Below, one piece after another: positions 32,539-64,000 of a stretch of DNA of 64,000 bases. Each line of letters starts with the position of its first letter. The first letter of the stretch is position 1. The stretch lies in the NCBI RefSeq assembly GCF_017565705.1, contig NZ_JAGDYL010000015.1, positions 1-64,000 on the forward strand, read 5' to 3'. The translations under genes and the position numbers were made by a program. This DNA comes from Leucobacter ruminantium. GTDB taxonomy: Bacteria; Actinomycetota; Actinomycetes; Actinomycetales; Microbacteriaceae. The notes beneath the pieces were generated by a model that was not told the origin of the DNA, searched no databases, and saw only the letters and a list, made by a program, of their open reading frames with translations.

Positions 32539-33858
32539 TCATGAGCGGCCGAGCCCTCGATACTGCCAGCCCGCAGCGCGCCATGCCTCGGGGTCGAGAC
32601 AGTTCCGGGCGTCGATGATGAGCGGGCGATCAACACCGGTGCGGCGCAGCGTCTGCGCGGGTTCGAGACGCCGGTACTCTTTCCACTCAGTGAGGAGCAC
32701 CACGATCTCGGCGCCGACGAGCGCCGTGTCGGTATCCGCCTCGTAGTGCAGTTCGGGATGACGCCTCCTGGCGTTCTCGATGCCCTGCGGGTCGGTCACC
32801 GTCAGCTCGGCGCCGCCTGCGCGCAGCGCCGCTGCCACGTCGAGCGCGGGTGAGTCGCGCACATCGTCGCTATCCGGCTTGAAGGTCGCGCCGAGCACGG
32901 CGATCCGGCGACCCGCGAGGGATCCCTCGCAGTGCTCCTCCACGAGCTGCACGACGCGCGCTCGTCGGCGCAGGTTGATCGCCTCGACCTCGCGCAGGAA
33001 GGCCACAGACTCTCCCACGCCGAGCTCCTCCGCTCGCGCCGCGAAGGCTCGGATGTCCTTCGGCAGGCATCCCCCACCGAATCCGACGCCCGCGTTCAGG
33101 AATCGTCGGCCGATCCTGGCGTCGTAGCCGATCGCATCGGCGAGCCTCGTCACATCCGCGCCGACCGCCTCGCTGACCTCGGCCATCGCGTTGATGAAGC
33201 TGATCTTCGTCGCGAGGAAGGCGTTTGCGGCCGCCTTCACGAGTTCCGCCGTGGCGAAGTCCGTCGCGACCTTCGGCGTCGCTGCAGCGAGCGCCTCGGC
33301 GTAGACCGCGTCGAGCAGCCTTTCGGCCGTGTCGGAGTTGCCGCCTGCGGGCAGGCCGTAGACGATGCGATCGGGGCTGAGCGTGTCTTGCACGGCGAAG
33401 CCCTCTCGCAGGAATTCGGGATTCCAGGCGAGCATCACTCCGGGCACCCGCTCCGACACCCACGACGACAGCCGCTCGGCCGTGCCGACGGGCACCGTCG
33501 ACTTGCCCACGAGCAGATTCCCCGGCGAGAGGTGAGGGATCAGGGCTTCGACCGCCGAATCGACATAGCTCATGTCCGCGGAGTTGTCGTTCGCGGACTG
33601 CGGGGTGCCGACGGCGATGAAGTGCACCTCGGCGCCCGCGGCCTCGCCGATATCGGTGGAGAAGCGCAGCCTCCCCGAGGCGAGTCCCGATCGCAGGAGC
33701 TCGTCGAGCCCGGGCTCGTAGAAAGGCGTGCGCCCCTCCGAGAGCAGTGCGACCTTGCCCGCATCGACGTCGATGCCCACGACGTCGTGGCCCAGATCCG
33801 CCATCGCCGCGGCGTGCACCGCACCCAGGTAACCGCAGCCGATCACCGAAATCCTCAT
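32539..33858 (-). CDS. ugd: UDP-glucose 6-dehydrogenase
   Basis: This encodes 439 aa from ATG 33858, which overlaps the upstream GT2 stop by four bases; AGGG lies just upstream. The Rossmann motif is VIGCGYLGAVHAA. The catalytic Cys is in GVGFGGGCLPKDIRAF, and FKPDSDDVRDSPALDV is the usual C-terminal NAD-side motif. It oxidises UDP-glucose to UDP-glucuronate, giving the polysaccharide an acidic sugar. A UDP-GlcNAc dehydrogenase (WbpA) is a related alternative that would feed the 3-acetamido pathway at 4-9.5 kb. The 16-base iterated palindrome (32915-32930) is inside the gene and encodes CEGSLAG. Confidence 0.92.
   Translation of the reverse strand: MRISVIGCGYLGAVHAAAMADLGHDVVGIDVDAGKVALLSEGRTPFYEPGLDELLRSGLASGRLRFSTDIGEAAGAEVHFIAVGTPQSANDNSADMSYVDSAVEALIPHLSPGNLLVGKSTVPVGTAERLSSWVSERVPGVMLAWNPEFLREGFAVQDTLSPDRIVYGLPAGGNSDTAERLLDAVYAEALAAATPKVATDFATAELVKAAANAFLATKISFINAMAEVSEAVGADVTRLADAIGYDARIGRRFLNAGVGFGGGCLPKDIRAFAARAEELGVGESVAFLREVEAINLRRRARVVQLVEEHCEGSLAGRRIAVLGATFKPDSDDVRDSPALDVAAALRAGGAELTVTDPQGIENARRRHPELHYEADTDTALVGAEIVVLLTEWKEYRRLEPAQTLRRTGVDRPLIIDARNCLDPEAWRAAGWQYRGLGRS
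32915..32930. repeat. Full-length iterated palindrome inside ugd
   Basis: GCGAGGGATCCCTCGC is a perfect 16-base palindrome. It is the full form of the GAGGGATC word that recurs about 25 times from here to the right end. Here it is read as E-G-S-L-A near the ugd C-terminal domain. It is the leftmost copy of the dense series. Confidence 0.8.
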
Positions 33859-34778: not shown

Positions 34779-34842
34779 GCACTCCATCCTAGGTCGCGCC
34801 TGCCGACCCCTCGCCCGTGAGCGAGCACCGCCGCTCCCCACC

Positions 34843-35943
<1,101 letters not shown>

Positions 35944-35945
35944 GC

Positions 35946-37340
35946 ATGGCGGCGAAGCAGCTCTCGCTCCGCGAGACCACGATCCCCGGCCTCGTCCTCC
36001 TCGACCTGCCCGTCCACGGCGACAACCGCGGCTGGTTCAAGGAGAACTGGCAGCGCGAGAAGATGGTCGCGCTCGGTCTGCCCGACTTCGGGCCGGTGCA
36101 GAACAACATCTCGTTCAACGACAAGACCGGAGCCACCCGAGGGATCCACGCAGAGCCCTGGGACAAGTACGTCTCCGTCGCGACGGGCAAGATCTTCGGC
36201 GCCTGGGTCGATCTGCGCGAGGGGCCGAGCTTCGGCAACGTGTTCACCGCGGAACTCGATCCGTCGACCGCGATCTTCGTGCCCCGCGGCGTCGGCAACT
36301 CCTACCAGACGCTCGAAGACGACACCGCATACGTGTACCTCGTCAACGATCACTGGAGCGCCGAGGCGCAGGGCGAGTACACCTTCCTGAATCTCGAGGA
36401 CGAGACTGCGGCTATCGAGTGGCCCATCCCGCTCGATCAGGCCGAGCGCTCGGAGAAGGATCTCGCTCACCCGCGCCTCGCCGACGTCGTGCCGATGAAG
36501 CCGAAGCGCACGCTCGTGCTCGGCGCGAACGGTCAGCTCGGCCGCGCGCTGCGGCAGATCATGCCCGGCGCCGAATTCGCCGGGCGCGACCGCATCGATC
36601 TCGCCTCGGACGACCCCTTCGCGGGCGTTCGCTGGGCCGACTACGACACGGTCGTCAACGCGGCGGCCTACACGCAGGTCGATGAGGCGGAGACTGAGAC
36701 CGGTCGCATCGACGCGTGGGCCGCCAACGTGACGGGTGTCGCCGCGCTCGCGCGAACTGCGACAGAGCACGGACTCACCGTCGTACACGTCTCGAGCGAC
36801 TACGTCTTCGACGGCACCAAGCGGCTCTACGCCGAGGATGCGGCATTCGCCCCCCTCGGCGTCTACGGCCAGACCAAGGCGGCCGGTGATGCGATCATCG
36901 CCACCGTGCCTCGGCACTACATCGTGCGCACCAGCTGGGTGATCGGCGACGGCAACAACTTCGTGCGTACCATGGCGTCCCTCGCCGAGCGCGGCATCGA
37001 TCCCGCGGTCGTCAACGACCAGATCGGCCGCCTCAGCTTCACCGAGGACATCGCGGCCGGCATCGCGCACCTGCTCCGGGCGCGCCCGGCCTACGGCGTC
37101 TACAACCTCACGAACGAGGGCGCCGCGATGTCGTGGGCGGATATCGCGAAGCTCGTCTACGCGGGCACCGGTCACGACGCCGAGCGCGTCAGCGGCGTCA
37201 GCACCGAGGAGTACTTCGCGGGGAAATCGGTCGCCCCGCGCCCGCTCAACAGCACTCTCGCCCTCGACAAGATCGAGGCGACCGGCTTCACCCCGCGTGA
37301 AGCGCGGGAGGCGCTGGAAGCCTATCTCGGGGGCCTCTAG
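35946..37340 (+). CDS. rmlCD: Fused dTDP-4-dehydrorhamnose 3,5-epimerase / reductase
   Basis: This encodes 464 aa from ATG 35946. The N-terminal half (about 1-175) is a RmlC cupin: LPVHGDNRGWFKENW, TRGIHAEPWDKYVSVATGKI with the catalytic His, and FVPRGVGNSYQTLED. The C-terminal half (from about 185) is RmlD: LVLGANGQLGRALRQI, NAAAYTQVDEAE, SSDYVFDGTKRLY and YGQTKAAGD (Tyr-xxx-Lys). One chain therefore performs the last two steps to dTDP-L-rhamnose, an arrangement known in several Actinobacteria. The final 53 bases overlap the end of the convergent phosphoglycerol-transferase gene. Confidence 0.95.
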   Translation: MAAKQLSLRETTIPGLVLLDLPVHGDNRGWFKENWQREKMVALGLPDFGPVQNNISFNDKTGATRGIHAEPWDKYVSVATGKIFGAWVDLREGPSFGNVFTAELDPSTAIFVPRGVGNSYQTLEDDTAYVYLVNDHWSAEAQGEYTFLNLEDETAAIEWPIPLDQAERSEKDLAHPRLADVVPMKPKRTLVLGANGQLGRALRQIMPGAEFAGRDRIDLASDDPFAGVRWADYDTVVNAAAYTQVDEAETETGRIDAWAANVTGVAALARTATEHGLTVVHVSSDYVFDGTKRLYAEDAAFAPLGVYGQTKAAGDAIIATVPRHYIVRTSWVIGDGNNFVRTMASLAERGIDPAVVNDQIGRLSFTEDIAAGIAHLLRARPAYGVYNLTNEGAAMSWADIAKLVYAGTGHDAERVSGVSTEEYFAGKSVAPRPLNSTLALDKIEATGFTPREAREALEAYLGGL

Positions 37341-39009
37341 GCTCCCACCACCTGGCGCCGTCGGAATCATCGGCGGCGCCAGAGACGCGGTCCGGATGCT
37401 TCGGGTCGAAGTAGTCGGCTTCGACGGTCTCGCCCTCGCCCAGACCCCACATCGTCGTGTAGAGGTCGCTCGACCTCGACTCCACGACCTCCCGGTATTC
37501 GTCCGGGCTCAGCGCAAGGATGCTATCCGCTCGGACTTCGGTGGCGAGCGCTGAGACGCCGACTCCTGCGCGGTGATCCTGCACTTCGAATCCGAGCAAG
37601 TCCAACATCGTCGCGAACATGCTGAGCTGGTCGATGTCCTCTCGCGCGAACTCAGCGCCATCGGGGCTCCAGATACGGTTGAAGATCGGCCGGTCCTCGA
37701 GCTGCTTCAGTTCCTGATAGCTCGACTGGTCCGAGATGAACCGCTCGTGATCACCCATGACGACGACAACGGTATCGTCCAGGTAACCGCGCTGCTCGAG
37801 GTGATCCACAAAACCCGCGACCTGTTCCATCGAGCACCTCATGATCGACGTCATCCCCACGTCAGTGGTGATCGGACAGTACTCGAAGGCGTGCTCCGGG
37901 TCATGAGTATCGAGAGTTAGCATCGTGAGGTTGAAGGGCCTGCCGGATGCGTGGAGTCGATCGACCTCGTCCCTCGCATGATCCATCAGGGCGCGGTCGG
38001 AGATTCCCCAGTCCGAACGCTCCTCCTCGCCCTCCTCGAGCCAGTGATCCAGGTCGAGCACCTCATCGAAGCCGTGCGTGGTGAGGAACGTCCCTTTGGC
38101 GGCGAACGCGGCATCCGCACCTCCGAGGAAGACGTTCTCGTACCCGGCGTCCGCGAGCACGTCACCGAGACACGTGGCCCCCGGCAGATAGGTGTCGGAG
38201 TCCTCACCGATCCTGTCGAGTTCGTTCTCTCTCGCGGTCTGGATGCCGCGGAGAGGGATCCCGCACTGCGTACCGACGATTCCGGCCATCGTCCATCCGC
38301 CGCCGTCGTACTGACGGAGATTCTCGATCTGCGACCAGTCCCCGGTCGCCCGCTGGATAGGCGCCAGCGCATTCTTCTCGACGAAGCGCTCGTCACCGAA
38401 CGCCTCCTCCATCGATTCCAGATAGATCAGGACCAGGTTCTTCGGGTGTTCCTGCGCCGTCGCAGCCGGAGCAACGTAGTAGGAGCTGAGCGTGAGGTCC
38501 GTGGTCAGGGAACGAACGTGTTGCACCAGACCGATCGTCTGAGCGAACAACGCGGCGCCAAGGGCCAGCACCGCGACGGAGGCGAGGCCTGCACCCCAAG
38601 AGGAGACACGTCCGGCGAGGACCGCCCGGCGCCGGGCGGCAGCCGGATCCCTGCGCAGCGCGATGAAGCTGCGCGAGCTGCTCCGCATACGACGCTGTAC
38701 CACCGCCGCGATGACGGGGACCAGCGCGACGATCAGCGCTGGAATCACCAGCACCTCCCAGACGAAACCGGAGATGTAGCCCGTCTCCGCGCCAGTCGCG
38801 CCGTCTCCACCGCCCGCGGGTAGATTCGTCAGCATCTGATCGACGGAGATCATGCCGAAGGTCCGCCGAACCCAGAGTGAGGCGGCAGCCAGAATCGCTC
38901 CGACGAGCAGGAGCGCGTAGGTGGCGACGCGACCGACCTTCCTCACCCACGTCACCCACGTGCGGCGCTTGACGCGCCGGGAAGTCTCAGCCATGCTCTG
39001 ATATGCCAC
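37288..39009 (-). CDS. MdoB/OpgB-like phosphoglycerol transferase (copy 1)
   Basis: This encodes 573 aa from GTG 39009; ATG 38994 is an alternative and neither has a good ribosome site. Three or four N-terminal helices precede an extracytoplasmic alkaline-phosphatase-superfamily domain. Motifs are VLIYLESMEEAF (metal Glu), YDGGGWTMAGIVGTQCGIPL with the likely Thr nucleophile, YLPGATCLGDVLADAGYENV and VVVMGDHERF. WT-AG...CGIPL and LGDVL-GY match E. coli OpgB/MdoB, which transfers phosphoglycerol from phosphatidylglycerol to glycans. The last roughly 17 residues are read antisense to rmlCD and look like a read-through extension absent from copy 2. Confidence 0.85.
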   Translation of the reverse strand: MAYQSMAETSRRVKRRTWVTWVRKVGRVATYALLLVGAILAAASLWVRRTFGMISVDQMLTNLPAGGGDGATGAETGYISGFVWEVLVIPALIVALVPVIAAVVQRRMRSSSRSFIALRRDPAAARRRAVLAGRVSSWGAGLASVAVLALGAALFAQTIGLVQHVRSLTTDLTLSSYYVAPAATAQEHPKNLVLIYLESMEEAFGDERFVEKNALAPIQRATGDWSQIENLRQYDGGGWTMAGIVGTQCGIPLRGIQTARENELDRIGEDSDTYLPGATCLGDVLADAGYENVFLGGADAAFAAKGTFLTTHGFDEVLDLDHWLEEGEEERSDWGISDRALMDHARDEVDRLHASGRPFNLTMLTLDTHDPEHAFEYCPITTDVGMTSIMRCSMEQVAGFVDHLEQRGYLDDTVVVVMGDHERFISDQSSYQELKQLEDRPIFNRIWSPDGAEFAREDIDQLSMFATMLDLLGFEVQDHRAGVGVSALATEVRADSILALSPDEYREVVESRSSDLYTTMWGLGEGETVEADYFDPKHPDRVSGAADDSDGARWWEPRGPRDRLPAPPALHAG

Positions 39010-40832: not shown

Positions 40833-42254
40833 CTACTCCTCGGGCTGCGGCGAGGCCTGCGCCACCGCGTCCGCGACCATCTGCTGGATCTGCGCGTAAT
40901 CGGGCAGCGAGGGATCGACGGTCGGCGGCACGAGCTCGACGGTGACGGGCTGGTGCTCCTTCGCCTTCGTCGCGAGGCTCGCGAAGCGCCCGAGCATCGA
41001 CTCGGGGATGTCGGTCTGCACGACGCTCGCGCCGCTCTTCGCGATGTCCTGGAAGCGCAGCAGCACGTTCGCCGGCTTCATCTGCGCGAGGATCGCCCGC
41101 TGCAGCTCGCGCTGGTGCGCCATGCGGTCGTAATCGCCGTTCGCGAGCCCGTGCCGCACCCGGGCGAAGAGCAGCGCGGTCTGGCCGTCGAGGTGCTGCT
41201 CCCCCGGCTCGAGGAAGGCGTCGCCGTCGACCCACGCGCCCGTCGCCGGATCCTCGTATCCGTTGAGCGGGATCGGCTGCTCCACGTTGACGGTCACCCC
41301 GCCGAGGGCGTCGATCAGCGAGCTGAAGCCCTCCATATCGATGAGCACGTAGAACTGCACCTGCAAGCCGGTCGCACCGGTCACCGCATCCTTCGTGGCC
41401 TCGATGCCCGGCGTGGAACCCTTCGAGACCGCGTCGGCGTACATGCCCTCGTACGACGGCGACCCCGAAGCCTCGAGCTCCGTGATCATCGAGTTGAGGT
41501 TGCCCGTCGTGTAGCAGTAGTACCCGCCGCCGTCGACGACCTCGTAGTTGTTCACCTCGTCGCAGTACCCCTCGGGGTAGACGGGGGCCATGGGCGAGGT
41601 CTCGGGGAACGGCATATCGGTGAGCTCGCGCGGCAGTCCTACGATCACCGACTGGCCGGTCTTGGCATCGACGCTCACGAGCGAGATGCTGTCGGGCCGC
41701 AGCCCCTCGCGGTCGGCGCCGGGGTCGACGCCGAGCAGCAGGATGTTGTAACGGCCGTCGACCGGCTCGACCGCCGGCGCGCCCGCGAAGATGTCGAGCA
41801 CGCCGCGGCTCGCCCCGATGAGCGACGACGCCCACGCCGCTCCGCCGCTCGCCACCAGCGTCAGGAGCACCGCGATCATCGCGACCGGCGCCCGCCAACC
41901 GCGCGACACCTTCACGATGCGGGTCAGCCGCAGCGTGTCGATGCCGAGCACGAGCCACAGCACCGCATAGGCGATGAGCAGCCCCTGCACTACCAGCAGC
42001 ACGTACGAGTTCGCGATCACCGTGAGCGTGGCCGTCTGGAAGAGCAGCAGGCCGACGAGCGTAGCGATGAGCAGCAGCAGCGCGACCCCCGTCGCCGCGA
42101 GGCCGAAGCGGCCCAGGCGCCGGTTGCCCGCGAGCACCTGCGCACTGCCCGGGAGCAGGAATCCGAGAACCACGAGCCACCGCGCCCGCTTGTCCATCAG
42201 CGGGGCGGAGTCGGTGTCGGGGTAGCGGATGGGCCGCTCGAGATCCTGGCTCAC
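40833..42254 (-). CDS. LytR-CpsA-Psr (LCP) family wall-polymer ligase
   Basis: This encodes 473 aa from GTG 42254. Four membrane helices lie in residues about 25-165, one more group than classical single-pass LCP proteins. The extracytoplasmic LCP domain has YNILLLGVDPGADREGLRPDS, VIVGLPRELTDMPF (the Arg of the SIPRD-type motif), the DALGGVTVNV stretch and LLFARVRHGLANGDYDRMAHQRELQ. The diagnostic Asp and Arg residues that bind the pyrophosphate are therefore present. LCP enzymes move polyprenyl-linked glycopolymers onto peptidoglycan. TAAAGT lies seven bases before the GTG, so the mRNA may be leaderless. Confidence 0.92.
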   Translation of the reverse strand: MSQDLERPIRYPDTDSAPLMDKRARWLVVLGFLLPGSAQVLAGNRRLGRFGLAATGVALLLLIATLVGLLLFQTATLTVIANSYVLLVVQGLLIAYAVLWLVLGIDTLRLTRIVKVSRGWRAPVAMIAVLLTLVASGGAAWASSLIGASRGVLDIFAGAPAVEPVDGRYNILLLGVDPGADREGLRPDSISLVSVDAKTGQSVIVGLPRELTDMPFPETSPMAPVYPEGYCDEVNNYEVVDGGGYYCYTTGNLNSMITELEASGSPSYEGMYADAVSKGSTPGIEATKDAVTGATGLQVQFYVLIDMEGFSSLIDALGGVTVNVEQPIPLNGYEDPATGAWVDGDAFLEPGEQHLDGQTALLFARVRHGLANGDYDRMAHQRELQRAILAQMKPANVLLRFQDIAKSGASVVQTDIPESMLGRFASLATKAKEHQPVTVELVPPTVDPSLPDYAQIQQMVADAVAQASPQPEE

Positions 42255-42281: not shown

Positions 42282-43640
42282 TTAGAAGACGGTGCGCCCC
42301 TGCGAACAGGTCTGCTGATCGGCGCGCTGGCCGGTGATGTTCGACGGCAGCTCCACCGGGGCGTTCGGGTCGGCGGCCGGGGTCTCCGTCGGGGGGATCG
42401 TCGCGGGGTCGACCGGCTGACCCGTCGCGGGGTCGATAGGCCAACCCGTAGCCGGGTCGATCGGCCACCCGGTGGCCGGGTCGATCGGCAGACCGGTCTC
42501 GGGGTCGACCTGCGGCTCGGCCGAGGGATCGGCGGTCTCCGCCGTGCCATCTGCGGCGACGCCCTCGCCCACCGCGGTCACGTTGAACGGCTGGCCCGAG
42601 ACGACCGCGTCGATGAGCGCCTGCGCCGAAGCGCTGTCGGGGGTGAGCCTGCCGGCCTCGTATGGATGGGTGGTCGTCGGATACTGCACGAAGTTGATGC
42701 GGCTGAGATCGATGTCCTTGACCGTGCCGGCTGCGGCCTGCATGAACGGCACGTTCGCCATGTTGTCGGAGAGCGTCATGTTCTCGACGATCGCCTTCGC
42801 GAGGCCGTAGACCTTCATAGGGTCGCCGAGGGTGTTCGAGCTCTTGAGCTGGCGCATCATCGCCGACATGAAGACCTGCTGGTTGCTGATGCGGCTCGTG
42901 TCGCCGCCGTCGCCGACGCCGTGACGGGTGCGCAGGAACTGCAGCGCCTGCCCGCCCGAGAGCGTGTTCATGCCCGCGGGCAGTTCAAGGCCGGTGTAGG
43001 GATCGTCGATGGGCTGGGTGAGGCACACCTCGACGCCGCCGATCGCGTTCGACATCTGGATGACGCCGTCGAAGGTGACCATGCCGGCGTAGGGGATCTC
43101 CATCCCCGTGAGCTCCGAGATCGTGGCCGCGACGCACGGCAGGCCGCCCACGCCGAGCGTGGTGTTGATCTGCTGCTCGCTCATCGCGGGCGTGTAGTCC
43201 GGCTCCCCGTTCGGGCCCGGGCAGCTCGGGATCGGCACCATCAGGTCGCGCGGGAAGCTGATGACGGTCGCGTTCTCGTGGTCTGCCGAGACGTGCAGCA
43301 GCAGGTTCACGTCGTTGAGCTCGCCGGTCTCCCCGTCGTCGAGGCTCTGCCCCGCGCGGGTGTCGGAGCCGACGAGCAGCACCGTGAGCGGGCCGTCGAG
43401 CGACTGCGAGCTGAGATCGACCGCGTCGACACCGGGGGCGCTGCCCCCGAGCGACACGGTGTTGACGTTCTGCGCCAGACCCCACACGGCGTACGCGACC
43501 GTGGCGACACCGCTCAGACCGACCACCAGAGCACCCGTGATGAGCACCCGCAGCGCGTTGCCCCACGAGCTCGAGCGACGCAACCTGCCGTGCCTGAATC
43601 GGCTCGACACCCCGTGCTCGCGGTTCTTGCTCATCGTCAT
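42282..43640 (-). CDS. LCP family ligase with octapeptide-repeat tail
   Basis: This encodes 452 aa from ATG 43640, preceded by GAGGGA; the frame is open further right but overlaps the divergent GT. There is one N-terminal helix (about 28-50). The LCP domain has LTVLLVGSDTRAGQ, VISFPRDLMVPIP, NAIGGVEVCL and LQFLRTRHGVGDGGDTSRISNQQ. After the domain comes an acidic Pro-rich tail with five octapeptides of the form xDPxTGxP, then a Cys-containing end. The tail is probably a flexible wall-spanning spacer. It lies 27 bases before the second LCP gene, so two ligases may serve different polymers. Confidence 0.92.
   Translation of the reverse strand: MTMSKNREHGVSSRFRHGRLRRSSSWGNALRVLITGALVVGLSGVATVAYAVWGLAQNVNTVSLGGSAPGVDAVDLSSQSLDGPLTVLLVGSDTRAGQSLDDGETGELNDVNLLLHVSADHENATVISFPRDLMVPIPSCPGPNGEPDYTPAMSEQQINTTLGVGGLPCVAATISELTGMEIPYAGMVTFDGVIQMSNAIGGVEVCLTQPIDDPYTGLELPAGMNTLSGGQALQFLRTRHGVGDGGDTSRISNQQVFMSAMMRQLKSSNTLGDPMKVYGLAKAIVENMTLSDNMANVPFMQAAAGTVKDIDLSRINFVQYPTTTHPYEAGRLTPDSASAQALIDAVVSGQPFNVTAVGEGVAADGTAETADPSAEPQVDPETGLPIDPATGWPIDPATGWPIDPATGQPVDPATIPPTETPAADPNAPVELPSNITGQRADQQTCSQGRTVF
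42390..42509 (-). repeat. Five 24-bp tandem repeats (octapeptide xDPxTGxP) in LCP tail
   Basis: Five in-frame 24-base units encode VDPETGLP, IDPATGWP, IDPATGWP, IDPATGQP and VDPATIPP. The two middle units are identical at the protein level. Such arrays change copy number by slippage, so the length of this tail may vary between strains. Confidence 0.85.
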
Positions 43641-43878: not shown

Positions 43879-45003
43879 GTGACCGCAATCACGCTCATCG
43901 CCGAGCCCTTTCCCGACTGGGAGGCGGAGCAGCACTCCGCCGCCTCGAGGGATCTGGCCGCCGCAGTCGCCGCTACCGCGCCCCGCACCTGCAGCGCCCG
44001 CTACTTGATCTCCAAGGGGGCGGAGCTCCCCACATTCACGTCTCCGCTGCTGCGCACCGAGCACCTGCCCATGCCGGCGAAATCGCTGCCGCTCGTATGG
44101 CGCGCCGGTTCGGCCGCCCGCCCGCTCGACGGCGAGTTCGTGCACGCGATCACCCCGCTCGCCCCCCTTCGCGCCCGCGAGGAGGACGACGGATCTCAGA
44201 CCTCGGTGCTCGTGCCACACAGCATCGCCTGGGATGCGCCGGAGCTGCTGGGCAAGAACCTGGCCAAGCTGTACCGAACCTACGTGCGCCGCGCCGCGAA
44301 ATACGCGGACGTGATCCTCACTCCCACGCAAGCGACCGCGGAGGCCCTGCAGGCGCACTACGGCGCCGACCTCCCCGTGCAGGTCTTCCCGCTCGCACCG
44401 CCCACCGAGTTCCTGGCCCCCGCTGATGCGGCGGAGCAGTCCCTCGCGCTCGGACTGCCCGAGCGCTACGCCGCGACCACTGCCGTCGCGGGCGAGCACG
44501 GGCGCCTCGAGTGGATCTTCGACGCGCTGCGCGCCGATCCCTCGCTGCCGCCGGTCGTGATCATCGAGGGCCTCGACCCGGTTCCGCCCGCGCAGCCCAA
44601 GCGGGGCGGTCCCGAGCAGTCGACCGCCGCGGGGGTTCCCGAAGACCTGCAGGGCCGCGTACTCAGCGTGAAGCCCCGCACCCTGAGCGACGTCGGCACG
44701 ATCCTCTCGGGCGCCGACCTGCTGCTGCAGCCGCAGGCCTACGCAACCACCGGATACACGCTGCTCGGCGCACTCGCCGCGAACGCCCCCGTGCTGCACG
44801 CTGGGCACGCCGCGACCGCGGAACTCGTCTTCGACGCGGGAACCGCCGCCGAGGACGCCGCGGGCTTCGCAGCGGAGTTCAGCCGCATCGCACGCGAGCC
44901 CGATGAACTCGAACGGCTCCGCGTCATCGCTCGCGATCGCAGCCGCAGCTTCGGCTGGCGCAACACGGCCTGGCAGCTCTGGGAGACGCACGCCGACATC
45001 TGA
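43879..45003 (+). CDS. GT4 glycosyltransferase (mannosyltransferase-like)
   Basis: This encodes 374 aa; GGAGG at 43871-43875 precedes GTG 43879 by three bases. It has a GT-B layout with HAITPLAPL and VPHSIAWDAPELL in the acceptor half, YADVILTPTQATAEALQAHYG as the inter-domain signature, and QPQAYATTGYTLLGALAANAPVLH in the donor half. The donor half is short and lacks the usual E-x7-E motif, having TGYTLLGA in its place. Similar genes sit between LCP/FHA and purE/purK in related genomes. It may act in cell-envelope mannan or lipoglycan synthesis; the donor is not certain. Confidence 0.75.
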   Translation: MTAITLIAEPFPDWEAEQHSAASRDLAAAVAATAPRTCSARYLISKGAELPTFTSPLLRTEHLPMPAKSLPLVWRAGSAARPLDGEFVHAITPLAPLRAREEDDGSQTSVLVPHSIAWDAPELLGKNLAKLYRTYVRRAAKYADVILTPTQATAEALQAHYGADLPVQVFPLAPPTEFLAPADAAEQSLALGLPERYAATTAVAGEHGRLEWIFDALRADPSLPPVVIIEGLDPVPPAQPKRGGPEQSTAAGVPEDLQGRVLSVKPRTLSDVGTILSGADLLLQPQAYATTGYTLLGALAANAPVLHAGHAATAELVFDAGTAAEDAAGFAAEFSRIAREPDELERLRVIARDRSRSFGWRNTAWQLWETHADI

Positions 45004-45039: not shown

Positions 45040-45552
45040 CTACTCCGCGGCGATGCGCTCCTGCAGCGCGGCGTTCTTCTGCTCCACCATCTCCTCGAGC
45101 CCCTGCGCGTAGGAGTCCAGCTGCTTCGCGAGCTCGGGGTCGGAGGAGCCGAGGATGCGCGCGGCCAGCAGCCCGGCGTTCTTCGCACCGCCGATGCTGA
45201 CGGTCGCGACAGGGATCCCTCCAGGCATCTGCACGATCGAGAGCAGCGAATCGAGCCCGTCGAGCTTCGCGAGCGGCACCGGTACACCGATCACCGGCAG
45301 CGTGGTCATCGACGCGACCATGCCGGGCAGATGGGCAGCGCCGCCTGCGCCCGCGATGATCACCCGCAGGCCGCGGCCGGCCGCCTCATTCGCATAGGAC
45401 ACCATCTTGGCGGGCGTGCGGTGCGCGCTCACCACCTCGACCTCGTGCGCGATGCCGAAATCGCGGAGCACCTGCACCGCATCGCTCATCACATCGAAGT
45501 CGCTGTCGGAGCCCATGATCACGCCGACGAGGGGGGATGCGGTTTCAGCCAT
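45040..45552 (-). CDS. purE: N5-carboxyaminoimidazole ribonucleotide mutase
   Basis: This encodes 170 aa, a typical class I PurE. Motifs are [32 protein letters not shown] and [19 protein letters not shown]. It converts N5-CAIR made by PurK into CAIR in purine synthesis. TACGAT lies six bases before the ATG, so the transcript is probably leaderless. purK lies 1.7 kb away beyond the FHA gene and in the same orientation. A copy of the iterated word is read as GGIPV in the middle of the gene. Confidence 0.96.
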
Positions 45553-47150: not shown

Positions 47151-47182
47151 GCCGCGCGGAAGCGCGGAGGATCCCTCGCGAG

Positions 47183-47216
47183 ACGGGTTCCGCGAGGGAT
47201 CCCTCGCGGAACCCGT
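47183..47216. terminator. Perfect 34-base palindrome between FHA gene and purK
   Basis: The arm ACGGGTTCCGCGAGGGA is followed directly by its exact reverse complement, giving a 34-base palindrome. It lies between two converging stops (47150 and 47229), so it can fold as a terminator for both transcripts. There is no T tract on either side. Its centre is GCGAGGGATCCCTCGC, the full iterated palindrome; another copy of the word lies at 47170-47177. Confidence 0.65.
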
Positions 47217-48482: not shown

Positions 48483-48606
48483 GAATCGGGCGCTCCGACA
48501 TCGACATCCGGCGCCAACCCCCGGCACCCGATGCCCGCGCCCGGCAGCCGCGCGAGAGGGATCCCTCGCCCCCGCGCATCGCACACCCCGACCCGAAAGA
48601 GCCTCT

Positions 48607-53777: not shown

Positions 53778-54602
53778 CTACTGCAGCCGCTTGCGGATCC
53801 AGGCCGATGCCAGGTCCACCGCGACGATCACCACGAGGATGATGATCAGGTAGGTCAGCATCTCGTCGAACTGGAAGGTCTTGATGGCCTTGTTGATGAG
53901 CAGCCCGATGCCGCCGGCGCCCACGAGCCCGAGTACGAGCGACGAGCGCACGTTCACATCGAAGCGGTAGAGCAGCAGACCGGTGAGCTGCGGCAGAACG
54001 GTAGGGATCGTCGCGTTCGCGACCACCTGCCACCGCGAGGCCCCGGCCGTGCGCAGCGCCTGCTCCGGGCCGGGGTCGACGTCCTCCATCGCCTCCGACC
54101 ACAGCTTGCCCATGACGCCCGTGTTGTGGGCGATGAGCGCGAGCACGCCCGCGAAGGGGCCGAGGCCCACCGCGGTCACGAAGATGAGGGCGAACACGAT
54201 GTCGGGCACGGCGCGGAAGAACGACAGGATCCCTCGCGCCACCTGGTAGACGACGGCGTTGGGACTCGTGGTGCGCGCGCCGAGCACCGCGAGCAGCAGC
54301 GCGAACGGCACGGAGATCGTGGTGCCGAGCAGGCCGATCCAGAGCGTGGTCATCGCACCGTCGATGCCCGCGCGCACCACATCGGGGCTGAGATCGGGAG
54401 GGATCGCCTCCGCCAGGAAGTTCGTCATGCCCTGAGCGCCCGTGACGAGCTTGCCCGGGGAGAACTCCGTGGCCGAGAACGCCATGAGGTGCAGCAGCAC
54501 GAGCACGGCGACGATGACGGCCCACGAGCCGGCGCGATACGGGGCCCGGGGGTCGCGGGGAACGGGAAGCGCCTCGGGGGCGCGGGTGAGGGTCGTGGTC
54601 AT
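53778..54602 (-). CDS. phnE: Phosphonate-type ABC transporter permease
   Basis: This encodes 274 aa from ATG 54602. Six hydrophobic segments are visible, with the permease EAA loop around ALRTAGASRWQVVANATIPTVLP. DVDPGPEQALRTAGASRWQ and NVRSSLVLGLVGAGGIG are typical of PhnE. It pairs with the ATPase gene eight bases upstream and with the lipoprotein beyond it. The set imports phosphonates or related organophosphorus compounds. Confidence 0.9.
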   Translation of the reverse strand: MTTTLTRAPEALPVPRDPRAPYRAGSWAVIVAVLVLLHLMAFSATEFSPGKLVTGAQGMTNFLAEAIPPDLSPDVVRAGIDGAMTTLWIGLLGTTISVPFALLLAVLGARTTSPNAVVYQVARGILSFFRAVPDIVFALIFVTAVGLGPFAGVLALIAHNTGVMGKLWSEAMEDVDPGPEQALRTAGASRWQVVANATIPTVLPQLTGLLLYRFDVNVRSSLVLGLVGAGGIGLLINKAIKTFQFDEMLTYLIIILVVIVAVDLASAWIRKRLQ

Positions 54603-54610: not shown

Positions 54611-55402
54611 TCAGAGGTAGAGCGAGCCGAGCTCGACGTCGTCGATATCGAGCACGGAGGAGTCGAACACGAGACGGCCGCCGCGCAGGCCGATCACGCG
54701 GTCGGCGTATGCCCGGGCCAGCTGCGGCTGATGCAGCACCGCCGCGACGCCGAGGTTCTCCTCGACGGCGAGCCTGCGCAGCAGCCGCATGACGTCGTCG
54801 GCGGCTTTCGGGTCGAGCGCGGAGACCGGTTCGTCGGCCAGGATCATGCGCGGCCGCTGGCAGAGCGCGCGGGCGATCGCGACGCGCTGCTGCTGGCCGC
54901 CGGACAGGCTGCCCGCGCGATCGTGGGCGCGGTCGGCGAGGCCCACGCGGTCGAGGCACACCATCGCCTCCTCCTGCAGACTCCGGGGGAAGAGCGGAGG
55001 GATCGAACGCCAGCCGGGCAGGCGCGCGAACCCTCCGGCGCACACGTTCTGCAGCACCGTGCGGCGCTGCACCAGGTGGATCTTCTGGAACACGGTCGCC
55101 GCGGTGCGGCGCGCCTCGGCACGACGCTGCGCACTCGCCTCGCTGAGCCTGACGCCCGCGATCGTGATGTCGCCGGAGTCCGCCTCGATGAGGCCGTTCA
55201 CCGCACGCAGCGTGGTCGATTTGCCCGAGCCGTTGGCCCCGAGGAACGCGACCACCTCGCCAGCGTGCACGCGCATGCTCATGTCGGAGAGCACGACGCG
55301 GTCGCCGAAGCTCTTGGAGATGGCGCGCACGTCCAGCAGCACCTCGCGGGCGGCTGCGGCATCCGCGGGAGCCTGAGCCCCGAGCAGTGTGGCGGCGCTC
55401 AT
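54611..55402 (-). CDS. phnC: Phosphonate-type ABC transporter ATPase
   Basis: This encodes 263 aa from ATG 55402, whose A overlaps the last base of the phnD-type stop (TGATG). Walker A is GANGSGKSTTLRAVNG, the signature SLSGGQQQRVAIARAL, Walker B MILADEPVSALDP and the switch LHQPQLA. PhnC proteins energise import with PhnE. Ser replaces Thr, and a Gln appears instead of the usual His in the region after the Walker B (VLHQPQ), which is common for PhnC. The frame stays open upstream, but that part lies inside phnD. Confidence 0.92.
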   Translation of the reverse strand: MSAATLLGAQAPADAAAAREVLLDVRAISKSFGDRVVLSDMSMRVHAGEVVAFLGANGSGKSTTLRAVNGLIEADSGDITIAGVRLSEASAQRRAEARRTAATVFQKIHLVQRRTVLQNVCAGGFARLPGWRSIPPLFPRSLQEEAMVCLDRVGLADRAHDRAGSLSGGQQQRVAIARALCQRPRMILADEPVSALDPKAADDVMRLLRRLAVEENLGVAAVLHQPQLARAYADRVIGLRGGRLVFDSSVLDIDDVELGSLYL

Positions 55403-56421: not shown

Positions 56422-57556
56422 CGGGGAGGGCGGCGATGGTGCGGGCGCCGAGCGCGAGACCGACGGTCATGCCGGTGCCCGTCGTCACGGAGACGGCGGT
56501 GACGCCGGGAACCGGCGACTCCCGCAGGATGCGCCGACGATCGCTCGCGGCGTAGACGCCCTGCCAGCGCTCGAGCACTTCGAGACGCCGGGCGCCGAGC
56601 AGCGCGGCCGCCTCATCGAGCAGCAGCTGCGACCAGCGCTCGTCGAGGAACGGAGGCGCGGTGTCGTGCGTCGCGTGCGAGTCGCCCACGAGCAGCGTGC
56701 CGTCGTCCTGCTGCGTGAGCATGACATTGGCGTCGATCTCGAGCAGCTCGGGTCGATCCCTCGCGAGCTCCGCCCGCAGCGCCTCGGCAGCGGGGCCCTC
56801 GAACGCGCCGTAGCGCAGCATCGAGGTGCCGGTGAGCACTGCCGGGCCGAGCCCCATAGCGTGGGGCGCGCGCACGCGCACCATCTGCAGCGCGCACTCC
56901 CGCACCCCGCCGCGCTCGGCGACCTCGGGGAAGAGACGCCCGAGCAGGTGGCCGGCGGCGACGACCACGTGGTCGGCCTCCAGCGCGCCTCGGCTCGTCA
57001 CGACCTCGACGCCGCCGCGCGCGCCCGTCTCGACGGCGTGCACGGTCGTGCCGAAGCGCACCTCGCCGCGCTCGTGCGCGTCGACCCATGCCGCGATGCG
57101 GGCGACCGTCGTGCGCGGGTTCGCCGTGATGTCGTCGGGCAGGAGGGCCGCCGCTCGGGGCCGCACCGAGGGGTCGAGGCGCAGCGCGTCGCCCGTCTCG
57201 GCGCCCGACAGCAGCCGGGCGCGCTCCGGTGCGCGCCCCATTAGCTCGTGGAGTACCGCCTCCTCCGCAGCCGAGCGGGCGACGACGAGAGTGCCCGAGC
57301 GCCGGGCCTCGACCCCTGCGCGCTCGACGAGTGAGTGCCAGATGGGCAGCGACTCCTCCGCGAGTTCGCGCAACTCGCCGGCCTGCACGGAAGCGCCGAC
57401 GTGACCGAAGTTGCGCACACTCGCGAGCACGGCGGCCGAGTCCTGCTCGACCACGGTGACCCGGTAGCCGGCGTCGAGCGCGGCCACGGCGTGGGCGAGG
57501 CCGACGATGCCGGCCCCGACGACCGCGATGCGCGGTGCTGATGCGATGGGTGTCAT
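56384..57556 (-). CDS. FAD oxidoreductase of phosphonate clusters (PbfC/PbfD-like)
   Basis: This encodes 390 aa of the DAAO-type FAD family. The N-terminal dinucleotide motif is IAVVGAGIVGLAHAVAAL, followed by YRVTVVEQD. The FAD-side region includes RNFGHVGASVQAGELRELAE, and a C-terminal TGTGMTVGLALGA closes the fold. Members of this group co-occur with phosphonatase and Phn transporters, and some are reported to convert aminoethylphosphonate or its N-methyl form to phosphonoacetaldehyde. Here it is beside phnDCE, divergent from a GntR regulator and a phosphonatase-like HAD. The last ten residues (GRASAVPPAG) and the stop come from the REP repeat. Confidence 0.82.
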   Translation of the reverse strand: MTPIASAPRIAVVGAGIVGLAHAVAALDAGYRVTVVEQDSAAVLASVRNFGHVGASVQAGELRELAEESLPIWHSLVERAGVEARRSGTLVVARSAAEEAVLHELMGRAPERARLLSGAETGDALRLDPSVRPRAAALLPDDITANPRTTVARIAAWVDAHERGEVRFGTTVHAVETGARGGVEVVTSRGALEADHVVVAAGHLLGRLFPEVAERGGVRECALQMVRVRAPHAMGLGPAVLTGTSMLRYGAFEGPAAEALRAELARDRPELLEIDANVMLTQQDDGTLLVGDSHATHDTAPPFLDERWSQLLLDEAAALLGARRLEVLERWQGVYAASDRRRILRESPVPGVTAVSVTTGTGMTVGLALGARTIAALPAAGRASAVPPAG

Positions 57557-57595: not shown

Positions 57596-57692
57596 CTCGC
57601 GACCTCGTTCGGACAGAGTTCACCGCCGTTCGCCGATGAGCCAGAAAGGCAAACGAGCGTTCACCCGATCGTCACCCGGGATCCCTCCCGAC

Positions 57693-58492: not shown

Positions 58493-59200
58493 ATGATCAC
58501 TCTCGCCGTATTCGACATGGCAGGTACCACCGTCGACGACGGGGGCGGCGTCTACGAGGCTCTGCGCCTCGCGGTCGAGGAGACCGGCGCGACCGTCTCC
58601 CCCGCGGACCTCCAGGCCTGGATGGGCACCGAGAAGCGCGCCGCCATCACGGCGCTCATCGAACTCGGCGGAGGCGATCCCACGCTGGCCGCGGACACGG
58701 TCGACCGCGCCTTCGATCGCTTCCTCGCGCTCCTCGACGAGATCTACACGGCCCATCCGCCCACGCCGATCGCGGGTGCGCCCGAGACGATCGCCGAGCT
58801 GCGCGCCTCCGGCGTCAAGGTCGCGCTCACGACCGGCTTCTCGGTCGATGTGGCCACCGGCATCCTCGATCGGCTCGGCTGGGTCGTCGGGGGCGGGGAG
58901 GGCGAGGGATCCCTGCAGCTCGACGCGCTCGTCTGCGGAGACGAGGTCGCGCAGGGGCGGCCGGCGCCCTACATGATCCACCGGGCGATGGAGCGCACGG
59001 GCGTTCTCGACGTCGCGGAGGTGCTGGTGGCCGGCGACACGGCTGTCGACGTACGGGCGGGAGCGCACGCAGGCGCCGCGATCACGATCGGGGTGCTCTC
59101 GGGCAAGCTCGACCGCGCGGCCTTCGCCGGGGAGCCCTTCACCGCGCTGCTCGGATCGGTCGCCGAGATCCCGGCGTTCCTCGCCGCGCACGGAGCGTAA
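58493..59200 (+). CDS. Phosphonatase-like HAD hydrolase (PhnX-like)
   Basis: This encodes 235 aa. The nucleophile motif is FDMAGTTVDD: D8 is the nucleophile and Ala replaces the usual second Asp, as in phosphonoacetaldehyde hydrolase (DWAGTTVD). K48 in MGTEKRA lies where PhnX has its Schiff-base Lys (MGLLK), so the chemistry for C-P cleavage may be complete. Further motifs are TTGFSVDVATGIL and VLVAGDTAVDVRAG. Residues 133-140 (GGGEGEGS) are a Gly/Glu insertion encoded by a copy of the iterated word. It is co-transcribed with the GntR gene and expected to release Pi from phosphonoacetaldehyde made by the FAD enzyme. Confidence 0.85.
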   Translation: MITLAVFDMAGTTVDDGGGVYEALRLAVEETGATVSPADLQAWMGTEKRAAITALIELGGGDPTLAADTVDRAFDRFLALLDEIYTAHPPTPIAGAPETIAELRASGVKVALTTGFSVDVATGILDRLGWVVGGGEGEGSLQLDALVCGDEVAQGRPAPYMIHRAMERTGVLDVAEVLVAGDTAVDVRAGAHAGAAITIGVLSGKLDRAAFAGEPFTALLGSVAEIPAFLAAHGA

Positions 59201-59320: not shown

Positions 59321-60016
59321 TCAGGCGGGGACCGGCTGCAGCGTGTCCTTGCGCATCGTCGCCGACACCATGATCGGCAGGTGGTCCGAGAGCCCGCGGT
59401 CGAGCGTGCGCACGCTCTCGATGTCGAGGCCCGACGAGGTCGCGAAGTCGAAGTGCCCGCGGAACATCTTGTAGCGGGTGTAGGTGCGCTTGTCGCTCAG
59501 GCTCAGCTCGTAGCCGTGATCCCTCATCTCGAGGTCGAGGCGCCCCTTGAACACAGGGTAGTTGTAATCGCCGACCATGAGCGCGGGCAGGCCGGGCCCG
59601 AGCTGCCGCAGCTCGCCGAGCGCGGCGTGGATCTGGTGGCGGCGCAGCGAGTTGAGCGCCGTCAGCGGGGCCGCATGGAATGACGCGATCACCAGGTCGC
59701 GCCCGGTCTCGAAGTCGTGCAGCCGGGCCCCGAGCAGGCGCTCGTGCGCCGGAGCGGCGATGCGGTCGTGCAGGGATCGCTTCAGCTGGAAGGTGTGCGC
59801 GGAGCGGGTTCCGAAGCGTTCGTCGCGCACGTACATCGCGAGGCCCAGCCGGTTGCGCTCAGTCGCGTGCACCAGGTTCAGGTGACCGAGGTGCGCGGGC
59901 AGGGCGACGGCCTCCGCCTCCTGCAGGCACAGCACATCGGCCTGGTGGGTCTCCGCGAGCGCCTCCAGCTCGCACACGGCCCGGTTCTTCCTCAGGTTGT
60001 AGCTGATGATCCGCAT
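59321..60016 (-). CDS. Endonuclease/exonuclease/phosphatase-fold protein
   Basis: This encodes 231 aa from ATG 60016 (AAGGGG upstream); the frame is open further into the LysR gene and is not used. The fold's motifs are present: IISYNLRKN (Asn), VLCLQEAEAV (metal Glu), LVIASFHAAPLTAL (His), PALMVGDYNYP (Asp-x-Asn) and DRGLSDHLPIMV (Asp-His). The catalytic set for a Mg-dependent phosphodiesterase is therefore complete. No signal peptide is seen, so it acts in the cytoplasm. Substrate unknown. Confidence 0.85.
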   Translation of the reverse strand: MRIISYNLRKNRAVCELEALAETHQADVLCLQEAEAVALPAHLGHLNLVHATERNRLGLAMYVRDERFGTRSAHTFQLKRSLHDRIAAPAHERLLGARLHDFETGRDLVIASFHAAPLTALNSLRRHQIHAALGELRQLGPGLPALMVGDYNYPVFKGRLDLEMRDHGYELSLSDKRTYTRYKMFRGHFDFATSSGLDIESVRTLDRGLSDHLPIMVSATMRKDTLQPVPA

Positions 60017-61167: not shown

Positions 61168-64000
61168 GTGAGCACCAACGCCGTTCGCCCGCAAGACCTC
61201 GCAGACCAGGCCGTCGAACTCGTGCGCCGCTGGCTCCGGGAAGCCGCGGAGTTCCCGGTCGACGCCGCAGCCGCCCGCCTCGCAGGCGTGCTGCGCGACC
61301 CGCACGGCCTCGACTTCACCGTCGGCTTCGTCGACGGCGTCGTGCGCCCCGAAGACCTCGGGGCCGCGGCGAAGAAGCTGCGCGAGCTCACCCCCCTCAC
61401 CCCGAAGTTCCTGCCCGCACCCATGCGGGGCGCGATCGGCATCGGCGGCGCCGTCTCGAAGCCGCTTCCCGGCGTCGTCGTGCCGATCGCCCGCCGGGTG
61501 CTGCGCGAGATGGTCAGCCACCTCATCATCGACGCGAGCGACGCGAAGCTCGGCCCCGCGATCGCGAAGATCAAGCGCGACGGGGTGCGCCTCAACATCA
61601 ACCTGCTCGGCGAGGCCATCCTCGGCGAGTTCGAGGCGGAGCGACGACTGGCCGGGACGCACAAGCTGCTCGCCCGCGACGACGTCGACTACGTCTCGAT
61701 CAAGGTCTCCTCGACCGTCGCCCCGCACAACCACTGGGCCTTCGACGAAGCCGTCGCCCACATCGAGCAGCAGCTCGTGCCGCTCTTCGAGCGCGCCGCT
61801 GCCGCGAGCCCGCAGAAGTTCATCAACCTCGACATGGAGGAGTACAAGGATCTCGATCTCACGATCGCGGTGTTCAAGCGCATCCTCGACCGACCCGAGT
61901 TCACCGGCCTCGAGGCCGGCATCGTGCTGCAGGCCTACCTCCCCGACGCGCTCGCCGCGATGATGGATCTGCAGGAGTGGTCGGCCGCCCGTGTCGGGCG
62001 GGGCGGCGCCCCCGTCAAGGTGCGCATCGTCAAGGGCGCGAACCTGCCCATGGAGCACGTGGACGCCGCGATCCACGGTTGGCCCGTCGCCACCTGGGGG
62101 TCGAAGCAGGCGTCGGACACGAGCTACAAGGCCGTCATCGACTACGCACTCACACCGGAGCGCGTGAAGAACGTGCGCATCGGGGTGGCGGGTCACAACC
62201 TCTTCGATGTCGCCCTCGCCTGGCTGCTCGCGAAGGCCCGCGGTGCGCAGCAGGGAGTCGAGTTCGAGATGCTGCTCGGCATGGCGACGGGGCAGGCCGA
62301 GGCCGTGAAGCGCGAGGTCGGATCCCTGCTCCTCTACACGCCCGTCGTGCACCCCGAGGAGTTCGACGTCGCGATCGCCTACCTGATCCGCCGCCTCGAG
62401 GAGGGCGCGAGCCAGGAGAACTTCATGTCGGCCGTGTTCGAGCTGAACGACGATCGGACGCTGTTCGAGCGCGAGCAGCAGCGCTTCCTCGCGTCGCTCG
62501 AAGATCTCTCTGCCATCACGGGCGACGGTTCGGTCGAGACCTACGAGGTGCCCGCCCCGAACCGGCGCCAGGACCGTCGGCGCTACGACGAGGTCGGATC
62601 CGCGGCGCGTATCGAGTCAAAGGTCGAGGCCGGCCGTCGCGGGGAGTTCGAGAACACCCCTGACACCGATCCCGATCTGCCGGGCAACCGGGAATGGGGG
62701 CGAGGGATCGCGGAGCGCATGGTCGACTCGCGGCTCGGCGTCGAGCTCGTGGCCTCGTCGCGCCTCGACTCCGAGGAGCAGGTCGACGAGGCGATCGAGC
62801 GCGGCATCGTCGCCGCCGACGTGTGGCAGGCGCTCGGCGCCGACGAGCGCGCGCGCATCCTGTATCGCGCCGGCGAGGTGCTCGAATCGCGCAGGGCCGA
62901 ACTGCTCGAGGTCATGGGGTCCGAGTGCGGCAAGACGCTCGACCAGGGCGACCCCGAGGTCTCAGAGGCCGTCGACTTCGCGAACTACTACGCGATGCTC
63001 GGCCAGCAGCTCGAGCGGGTCGACGGCGCCGAATACCGCCCCGTGAAGCTCACCGCCGTGATCCCGCCGTGGAACTTCCCCGTGGCGATCCCCGCGGGCG
63101 GCGCTCTTTCGGCGCTCGCGGCCGGATCCTCCGTCATCATCAAGCCCGCCTCGAACTCCGCCCGCTCGGGCGCCGTGATGGTCGAGGCGCTGTGGGAGGC
63201 CGGGGTGCCGCGAGAGGTGCTGCAGCTCGTGCAGTTCTCCGACCGCGGGCTCGGCTCGAAGCTCGTCGCCGACCCGCGCATCGACCGGCTCATCCTCACC
63301 GGCGCCTACGAGACCGCCGTGTCGTTCCGCGAGCTGCGCCGCGACCTCCCGATCCTCGCCGAGACGAGCGGCAAGAACGCCATCATCGTCACCCCCAACG
63401 CCGACCTCGACCTCGCGGCGCGCGACGTCGCGCAGTCGGCATTCGGGCACGCCGGTCAGAAGTGCTCCGCCGCCTCGCTCGTCATCCTCGTCGGTTCCGT
63501 CGCGACCTCGCGGCGCTTCCGCGGCCAGCTGCTCGACGCCGTACGATCCCTCAAGGTCGGCACGCCCGAGCACCTCGATACCCAGATGGGCACCATCATC
63601 ACCGCTCCGAGCGGCAAGCTGCTGCGCGGCCTCACCACGCTCGGACCGAGCGAGGAATGGCTCATCGAGCCGCGGCCCCTCGAGAGCGACAGCCCGCTGG
63701 CCGTCGACCGCGAGGGCGCGACGAAGCTCTGGAGCCCCGGCGTGCGCGACGGCGTGCAGCGCGGCTCCGAGTATCACCTCACTGAGTACTTCGGGCCGAT
63801 CCTCGGCATCATGACCGCGGAGACCCTCGACGAGGCGATCGACATGGTGAACGAGATCGACTACGGCCTCACGAGCGGCCTGCACTCGCTCGACCGCGAC
63901 GACCTCGCGCTCTGGCTGGACCGCATCCAGGCGGGCAACCTCTACGTCAACCGCGGCATCACGGGCGCCATCGTGCGCCGCCAGTCGTTCGGCGGTTGGA
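61168..64000 (+). CDS. putA: Bifunctional proline dehydrogenase / glutamate-semialdehyde dehydrogenase (partial)
   Basis: The frame opens at GTG 61168 (AAAGG seven bases upstream) and is still open at the right edge, giving 944 codons. The proline dehydrogenase part (about residues 30-450) has LNINLLGEAILGEFEAERRL, DYVSIKVSS, FINLDMEEYKDLDLT and KVRIVKGANL. The aldehyde dehydrogenase part (from about 510) has VIPPWNFPVAIPAGG, ETSGKNAIIV with the general-base Glu, and GQKCSAASLVIL with the catalytic Cys. The last visible residues are RRQSFGGW. It degrades proline to glutamate. There is no N-terminal DNA-binding domain, so regulation is expected from the LysR protein. Confidence 0.93.
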   Translation, partial: MSTNAVRPQDLADQAVELVRRWLREAAEFPVDAAAARLAGVLRDPHGLDFTVGFVDGVVRPEDLGAAAKKLRELTPLTPKFLPAPMRGAIGIGGAVSKPLPGVVVPIARRVLREMVSHLIIDASDAKLGPAIAKIKRDGVRLNINLLGEAILGEFEAERRLAGTHKLLARDDVDYVSIKVSSTVAPHNHWAFDEAVAHIEQQLVPLFERAAAASPQKFINLDMEEYKDLDLTIAVFKRILDRPEFTGLEAGIVLQAYLPDALAAMMDLQEWSAARVGRGGAPVKVRIVKGANLPMEHVDAAIHGWPVATWGSKQASDTSYKAVIDYALTPERVKNVRIGVAGHNLFDVALAWLLAKARGAQQGVEFEMLLGMATGQAEAVKREVGSLLLYTPVVHPEEFDVAIAYLIRRLEEGASQENFMSAVFELNDDRTLFEREQQRFLASLEDLSAITGDGSVETYEVPAPNRRQDRRRYDEVGSAARIESKVEAGRRGEFENTPDTDPDLPGNREWGRGIAERMVDSRLGVELVASSRLDSEEQVDEAIERGIVAADVWQALGADERARILYRAGEVLESRRAELLEVMGSECGKTLDQGDPEVSEAVDFANYYAMLGQQLERVDGAEYRPVKLTAVIPPWNFPVAIPAGGALSALAAGSSVIIKPASNSARSGAVMVEALWEAGVPREVLQLVQFSDRGLGSKLVADPRIDRLILTGAYETAVSFRELRRDLPILAETSGKNAIIVTPNADLDLAARDVAQSAFGHAGQKCSAASLVILVGSVATSRRFRGQLLDAVRSLKVGTPEHLDTQMGTIITAPSGKLLRGLTTLGPSEEWLIEPRPLESDSPLAVDREGATKLWSPGVRDGVQRGSEYHLTEYFGPILGIMTAETLDEAIDMVNEIDYGLTSGLHSLDRDDLALWLDRIQAGNLYVNRGITGAIVRRQSFGGW

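Follow-up and report, generated by a model that had tools for sequence, protein, structure and literature searches.

A short asymmetric word iterated across the Leucobacter ruminantium genome and scarce in a probably acquired surface-polysaccharide segment

The 64-kb stretch of the Leucobacter ruminantium genome analysed here (the window) raises the question of why one octamer, GAGGGATC, should recur throughout its right part and be almost missing from its left. The original prediction put about 25 copies beyond 32.9 kb and two before it; counted on both strands, 29 copies were found to the right of 32,900 and 2 to its left (at 16807 and 20940), and all coordinates given earlier were verified, with the refinement that the 16-mer GCGAGGGATCCCTCGC begins at 32915 and the octamer itself at 32917. 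None of 100 dinucleotide shuffles of the window reached the total of 31 matches (mean 4.36, largest 9), and a second-order Markov model predicts approximately 2.5 copies for the right part and 1.8 for the left. Under such a second-order model, AGGGATCC and AGGGATCCCT, both extensions of GAGGGATC, were the top 8-mers and 10-mers. The window also holds three copies of the palindrome GAGGGATCCCTC (32917, 47194, and 48556), two of which extend to GCGAGGGATCCCTCGC. The iterated-word observation is confirmed as real, and its components, located by counting unless another method is given, are as follows.

1..32900, no strand: word-poor segment, GC content 0.643, surface-polysaccharide genes, 2 octamers (count, Pfam)
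16807..16814, plus strand: GAGGGATC, within the word-poor segment, at background level
20940..20947, minus strand: GAGGGATC, within the word-poor segment, at background level
32901..64000, no strand: resident word-rich segment, GC content 0.695, 29 octamers
32917..32928, no strand: palindrome GAGGGATCCCTC, equal to two overlapping copies, inside the 16-mer that starts at 32915
33534..33541, plus strand: GAGGGATC
36139..36146, plus strand: GAGGGATC
38253..38260, plus strand: GAGGGATC
40909..40916, plus strand: GAGGGATC
42523..42530, plus strand: GAGGGATC
43947..43954, plus strand: GAGGGATC
44536..44543, minus strand: GAGGGATC
45214..45221, minus strand: GAGGGATC
47170..47177, minus strand: GAGGGATC
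47194..47205, no strand: palindrome GAGGGATCCCTC, inside the 16-mer that starts at 47192, where a plus-strand frame (to 47150) and purK (47229-48377, minus strand) converge
48253..48260, minus strand: GAGGGATC, within purK
48556..48567, no strand: palindrome GAGGGATCCCTC, separating the divergent purK and MFS transporter frame (48607-50445, plus strand)
50287..50294, plus strand: GAGGGATC
50326..50333, plus strand: GAGGGATC
50371..50378, plus strand: GAGGGATC
51533..51540, plus strand: GAGGGATC
54228..54235, minus strand: GAGGGATC, congener version GCGGGATC or GCGGCATC, with Arg-Gly-Ile-Leu unchanged (count, alignment)
54398..54405, plus strand: GAGGGATC, with GCGGGATC in several congeners (count, alignment)
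54997..55004, plus strand: GAGGGATC
56755..56762, minus strand: GAGGGATC
57680..57687, minus strand: GAGGGATC
58904..58911, plus strand: GAGGGATC
59518..59525, minus strand: GAGGGATC
62702..62709, plus strand: GAGGGATC
63545..63552, minus strand: GAGGGATC

At the density of the remaining sampled genome, the left part would be expected to carry 31 octamers (P of 2 or fewer, 1.7e-11); since its two copies compare with the approximately 1.8 predicted from its own composition, it stands at background density. Ten of its proteins were compared with Pfam and nine gave matches, which comprise glycosyltransferases, WbsX/RgpF, acyltransferase/SGNH, an epimerase, a nucleotidyl transferase, and a mannosyltransferase-like protein. 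The suggestion that the missing word marks foreign DNA in the first 32 kb is upheld by the lower GC content, the surface-polysaccharide genes, and the background count, and the left 32.9 kb is probably foreign. A mobile segment elsewhere in the genome (L256, G000:C11:1-20000), in which a TrwC relaxase/helicase is encoded together with a C5 methylase, contains one octamer in 20 kb. The word is at background level in both acquired segments and represents a ready marker for recently acquired DNA in the L. ruminantium genome.

Outside the window, 596 copies of GAGGGATC were counted over the 631,543 bases sampled, a density of 0.94 per kb, which extrapolates to approximately 3,000 octamers in the whole genome. 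About 0.7 of the 3.3 Mb of this genome (G000) was read, including 20 stretches partly selected around listed palindromes; because the 200-kb C13 stretch, chosen for rpoB regardless of the word, holds 173 octamers (the sum of ten counts), palindrome-centred sampling changes the density little. The 12-mer GAGGGATCCCTC is present 130 times in the 3.3-Mb genome and its reversed control not once. Any copy of this 12-mer is found in 19 of 36 congeners, with a maximum of 6, and across 393 genomes of the class, L. ruminantium included, the runner-up holds 5. The 16-mer GCGAGGGATCCCTCGC was encountered in at least 92 stretches of the genome contig collection, with a single copy in each of the 80 that were listed, where four genomes appeared twice; of the viral contigs, three stretches carried it and none was word-dense. 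A scan for genome-private 7-mers in 20 sampled congeners, 8 of whose samples span just 16 to 40 kb, returned nothing comparable, the best z being 13 (CGGGATC in congener G032) versus 76 here, and in the literature surveyed, mostly titles and abstract openings, no iterated word of such a kind was found for an actinobacterium. The word is private to one species among those sampled, and the lineage-specific character originally proposed for it is borne out by counts far above Markov and codon-shuffle expectation. As the word occurs approximately once per 1,000 bases in the sampled parts of this chromosome and not at such a density in the sister species examined, some lineage-specific factor seems to drive one particular sequence into the genome.

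The palindrome had been taken as the iterated unit, and in this respect the original prediction requires revision, as the favoured unit is the asymmetric AGGGATC. AGGGATC is enriched 9.1-fold over the level in 1.86 Mb from 18 congeners, each single substitution within it yields a ratio of 0.4 to 1.7, and the four bases 5′ of it are graded, with a preference for G at the first, second, and fourth and for T, followed by A or C, at the third. It follows from the enrichment, its loss on substitution, and the graded flank that the unit is a strict asymmetric 7-mer with a graded 5′ flank, GGYG-AGGGATC. Although AGGGATCCCT lies 110-fold above congeners, it contains 158 of the 776 AGGGATC copies, and GAGGGATCCCTC holds 74 of 428 octamers; the palindrome is a minority form composed of two overlapping AGGGATC copies and accounts for about a fifth of copies. 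The A is carried by 219 of 308 half-sites in GGGATCCC versus 776 of all 1399 GGGATC, and the inverted overlap is therefore preferred, not obligatory. Near-matches are depleted where the mismatch falls in the AGGGATC core (79 versus 137) and enriched where it falls in the GCG flank (250 versus 30). The 10-mer GCGAGGGATC is 1.5- to 2-fold enriched with one mismatch, via the flank alone, and shows no enrichment with two (0.94 and 0.72); there is little flank information beyond approximately 12 bases.

Within 527 genes called by a purpose-written simple caller, AGGGATC occurs 511 times versus 48 under synonymous-codon shuffling, and between genes it occurs 230 times versus 19.5 under the second-order model. 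Overall, the word stands at 9 to 14 times expectation. The density of octamers is approximately 2.5-fold higher between genes than within them: spacers where genes converge hold 41 over 10.4 kb, tandem spacers 82 over 33.2 kb, and spacers where genes diverge 33 over 13.8 kb. The high GC content of the genome, the intergenic position of some palindromes, and the density peak between convergent genes might invite an explanation in ordinary terms (base composition, codon usage, a dispersed repeat, or transcription terminators), but this is scarcely credible: composition and codon usage are ruled out by the codon-shuffle null, congeners of similar GC content lack the word, divergent spacers are also dense, which speaks against terminators as the main cause, and long dispersed repeats are at odds with flank information that fades so quickly. 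The earlier claim that copies are read in all frames and both orientations holds, since genic octamers are found in every one of the six frames, with 43 to 98 per frame, and are divided into 208 sense and 208 antisense, 42 of the 416 being in palindromes and counted once each way. Orientation is near-balanced across 20-kb stretches, and no link to GC skew was seen. Chi and KOPS are skewed to the leading strand; the word is like them short, asymmetric, genome-wide, and species-dependent, and unlike them balanced in orientation, on which ground strand-skewed motifs were rejected. Its spacing is near-random, not even (570 gaps, mean 994 bases, coefficient of variation 1.11, 45 overlapping pairs). 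As a separate observation, runs of at least 10 G (or C) are strongly in excess in the sampled stretches (GGGGGGGGGG, 36 versus 0.7).

A related 7-mer is favoured elsewhere in the genus. By codon shuffling, CGGGATC exceeds expectation 2.1- to 3.1-fold in eight of nine congeners, compared with 1.3 in congener G016 and 1.2 here, and between genes its ratio to expectation is approximately 1.6 to 3.5 in all but one of seven congener groups, 0.9 in G016, and 1.4 here, with no intergenic excess in the outgroup samples. Per 100 kb, CGGGATC occurs 53.7 times here, 59.5 times in G016, and 108 to 219 times in six other congeners, while AGGGATC occurs 116.9 times here versus 8 to 21 times in these seven congeners. 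The milder CGGGATC excess of the congeners has nearly vanished in L. ruminantium, in which 356 copies stand against 819 expected from congeners, and the GGGATC total is nearly constant (1399 versus 1263 expected from congeners). The strongest congener excess of CGGGATC belongs to G032 (L067, L071-L075), with 263 copies versus 119 expected from the others; the palindrome CGGGATCCCG is found 28 times in that genome versus 3 by the Markov model.

The origin of individual sites was followed in alignments with congeners comprising 125,403 positions, whose divergence of approximately 17% makes the ancestral states approximate; gapped sites were excluded, as were those with a flank identity under 70% (comparison of one-off neighbours) or 80% (55-site set). 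For 86 octamers that could be aligned, mismatches to the nearest congener number 22, 48, 15, 27, 19, 33, 34, and 10 at positions 0 to 7, respectively, against a background divergence of approximately 17%; this congener already carries the A at 38 of the 86 sites, mostly differing at other positions. Several of the 55 better-aligned sites need two protein-preserving changes, as exemplified by Gly-Gly-Ile (GGCGGCATC to GGAGGGATC) and by Arg-Ser-Leu, read on the opposite strand. The protein was kept in 19 and changed in 30 of 49 coding comparisons over four codons, a tally that includes ordinary divergence. Changes at all core positions, coupled with the two-change sites, show that the whole word, not a single base, is favoured. 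The conversion of GCGGGATC to GAGGGATC is seen at 11 of 51 aligned loci, against 3 of 74 when the remaining one-off neighbours are pooled (p = 0.003), which, with the steady GGGATC total, makes a C-to-A component possible alongside whole-word gain; such a component may contribute. A site-specific C-to-A mutational trap, by which GCGGGATC would repeatedly become GAGGGATC and then stay, could draw on this preference and on the CGGGATC shortfall at a nearly unchanged total, but we regard it as very improbable: the nearest congener already has the A at many sites, the two-change sites exist, the CGGGATC level here is like that of G016, and TCGGGATC is reduced as strongly as CGGGATC (114 versus 287) with no gain of TAGGGATC to match (38 versus 5). 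As sole cause, a single-base trap is largely contradicted by the orthologous sites, the two-change sites, and TCGGGATC; pure C-to-A conversion, suggested by the nearly constant total, is not upheld by G016, TCGGGATC, or the orthologous sites.

Two further explanations invoke recognition of the word as such. An uptake-signal-like drive, in which competent cells would preferentially import and recombine DNA containing GGYGAGGGATC, the word would spread by biased allele replacement, and CGGGATC would be another dialect, accords with a word that is asymmetric, present approximately once per kb in all frames without strand bias, and created whole at many positions, as well as with the dialect-like shift from CGGGATC to AGGGATC, the enrichment of one-mismatch forms of GCGAGGGATC, the ComEC family match in each of 24 genomes searched, and the natural transformability described for the actinobacterium Micrococcus luteus. 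It is nevertheless doubtful. Forms with one mismatch are enriched through the flank only, core near-matches are depleted, and two-mismatch forms show no enrichment, a pattern unlike the graded near-match enrichment of H. influenzae and N. gonorrhoeae (PMC1939737); DUS dialects track phylogeny, according to PMC3630211, whereas the word here is found in a single sampled species. No match to N_methyl, the type IV pilin motif, was obtained in the L. ruminantium genome, and its comEC appears interrupted by a serine-recombinase element: the comEC frame, whose match to the Competence family spans profile positions 28-267 of 270, starts immediately next to a large serine recombinase gene (L280:1114-2769, minus strand; L280 being G000:C48:14501-20500), an arrangement that would fit the insertion of an element into comEC. 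The junction DNA was read for L. ruminantium alone; Competence matches also start at 27-28 in congeners G005, G006, and G015, and at 1-3 in 19 of the 24 genomes, which suggests a shared attachment site in comEC across these three genomes and L. ruminantium.

Selection for binding sites, by which a lineage-private DNA-binding protein with a role in the nucleoid, segregation, or self-marking would require many evenly available sites, is unlikely. A strict core with graded flanks does resemble protein affinity, neither strand nor frame is preferred, density is higher between genes, and the inverted overlap is somewhat favoured, as the distribution of the A among GGGATCCC half-sites indicates. To our knowledge, however, known segregation motifs have far fewer sites than the approximately 3,000 of 7 to 11 bp considered here, spacing is near-random, and no candidate protein presented itself.

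The explanation that we prefer to an uptake signal and to binding-site selection, albeit tentatively, is a HIP-like, modification-linked drive. The word would act as an “alternate HIP” in L. ruminantium, with a private sequence-specific DNA-modifying or repair system having a 7-bp asymmetric target biasing allele survival, such that near-matches would be turned into exact words and exact words would persist; the putative enzyme candidates are the adenine-methylase-like frames on G000:C26 (909 aa, near 103956) and C8 (931 aa, near 2027). A HIP-like drive is consistent with a word that is real and species-private, with an excess that codon usage does not account for and that extends to intergenic DNA, with the creation of whole words at orthologous sites, and with a strict core whose near-matches are depleted next to a graded flank whose near-matches are enriched. 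According to PMC4390886, HIP1 is common across cyanobacteria, its deviations cluster at outer positions, the replacement of one word by another within a single genome is known among HIPs, and GGGATCCC is an alternate HIP of Synechococcus JA-3-3Ab and JA-2-3B. HIP1 (GCGATCGC) and the alternate HIPs share with the present word a short iterated sequence with a GATC centre at approximately one copy per kb, a strict inner part with looser edges, and the apparent replacement of the word of relatives in one genome. AGGGATC differs from them in being asymmetric, where HIPs are palindromic, in being actinobacterial and limited to one sampled species, in its core-wide changes, and in that none of the methylase genes found was matched to it. 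Elhai's ratchet, moreover, alters flanking bases, while here all core positions change. The resemblance to HIP1 originally noted thus stands for an iterated lineage word and fails for the palindrome and for the breadth of distribution.

The enzymatic side of the HIP-like drive also meets objections. N6_Mtase has three matches in the genome, the 909- and 931-aa frames among them, one of which also matches Eco57I; frames of like length occur in congeners G005 and G014, both with 0 palindromes GAGGGATCCCTC, and the C5 methylase on mobile element C11 has similar matches in several congeners; none of these establishes a private methylase. An orphan N6/N4 adenine methylase of 286 aa (L255:11016-11876, G000:C13), which adjoins a PdxR-like regulator, has orthologues in six congeners at 74 to 85% identity and is ordinary for the genus, being shared with congeners that lack the word. 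Vsr endonuclease gave 0 matches in the L. ruminantium genome and was present in 10 of 30 genomes searched. The methylase or repair link put forward earlier was therefore not substantiated, given no Vsr and an orphan methylase with orthologues in wordless congeners.

The DUS of Neisseriaceae and the USS of Haemophilus, as presented in PMC3630211 and PMC1939737, are likewise asymmetric, occur approximately once per kb on both strands in genic and intergenic copies, and show related species preferring related words; the word of L. ruminantium departs from them in its depleted core near-matches, its occurrence in one species instead of a clade, the type IV pilin that was not found, and the interrupted comEC. 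It is possible, though we would put it at less than an even chance, that the word is a species-private self-marking word, the specificity of a DNA-recognition system having switched from CGGGATC to GGYG-AGGGATC and the chromosome having been rewritten at approximately 3,000 places (an extrapolated figure). If so, no earlier asymmetric system of a HIP-like or uptake-like kind would be known beyond the clades that carry them, and unconverted relatives are at hand for comparison. Clade-wide HIP1 and DUS conceal how highly iterated words begin. Because the word is found in one sampled species and 36 congeners have few palindromes, the direction of each gain can be assigned at individual sites; a causal gene would be traceable by presence and absence, and the rival mechanisms predict different testable outcomes.
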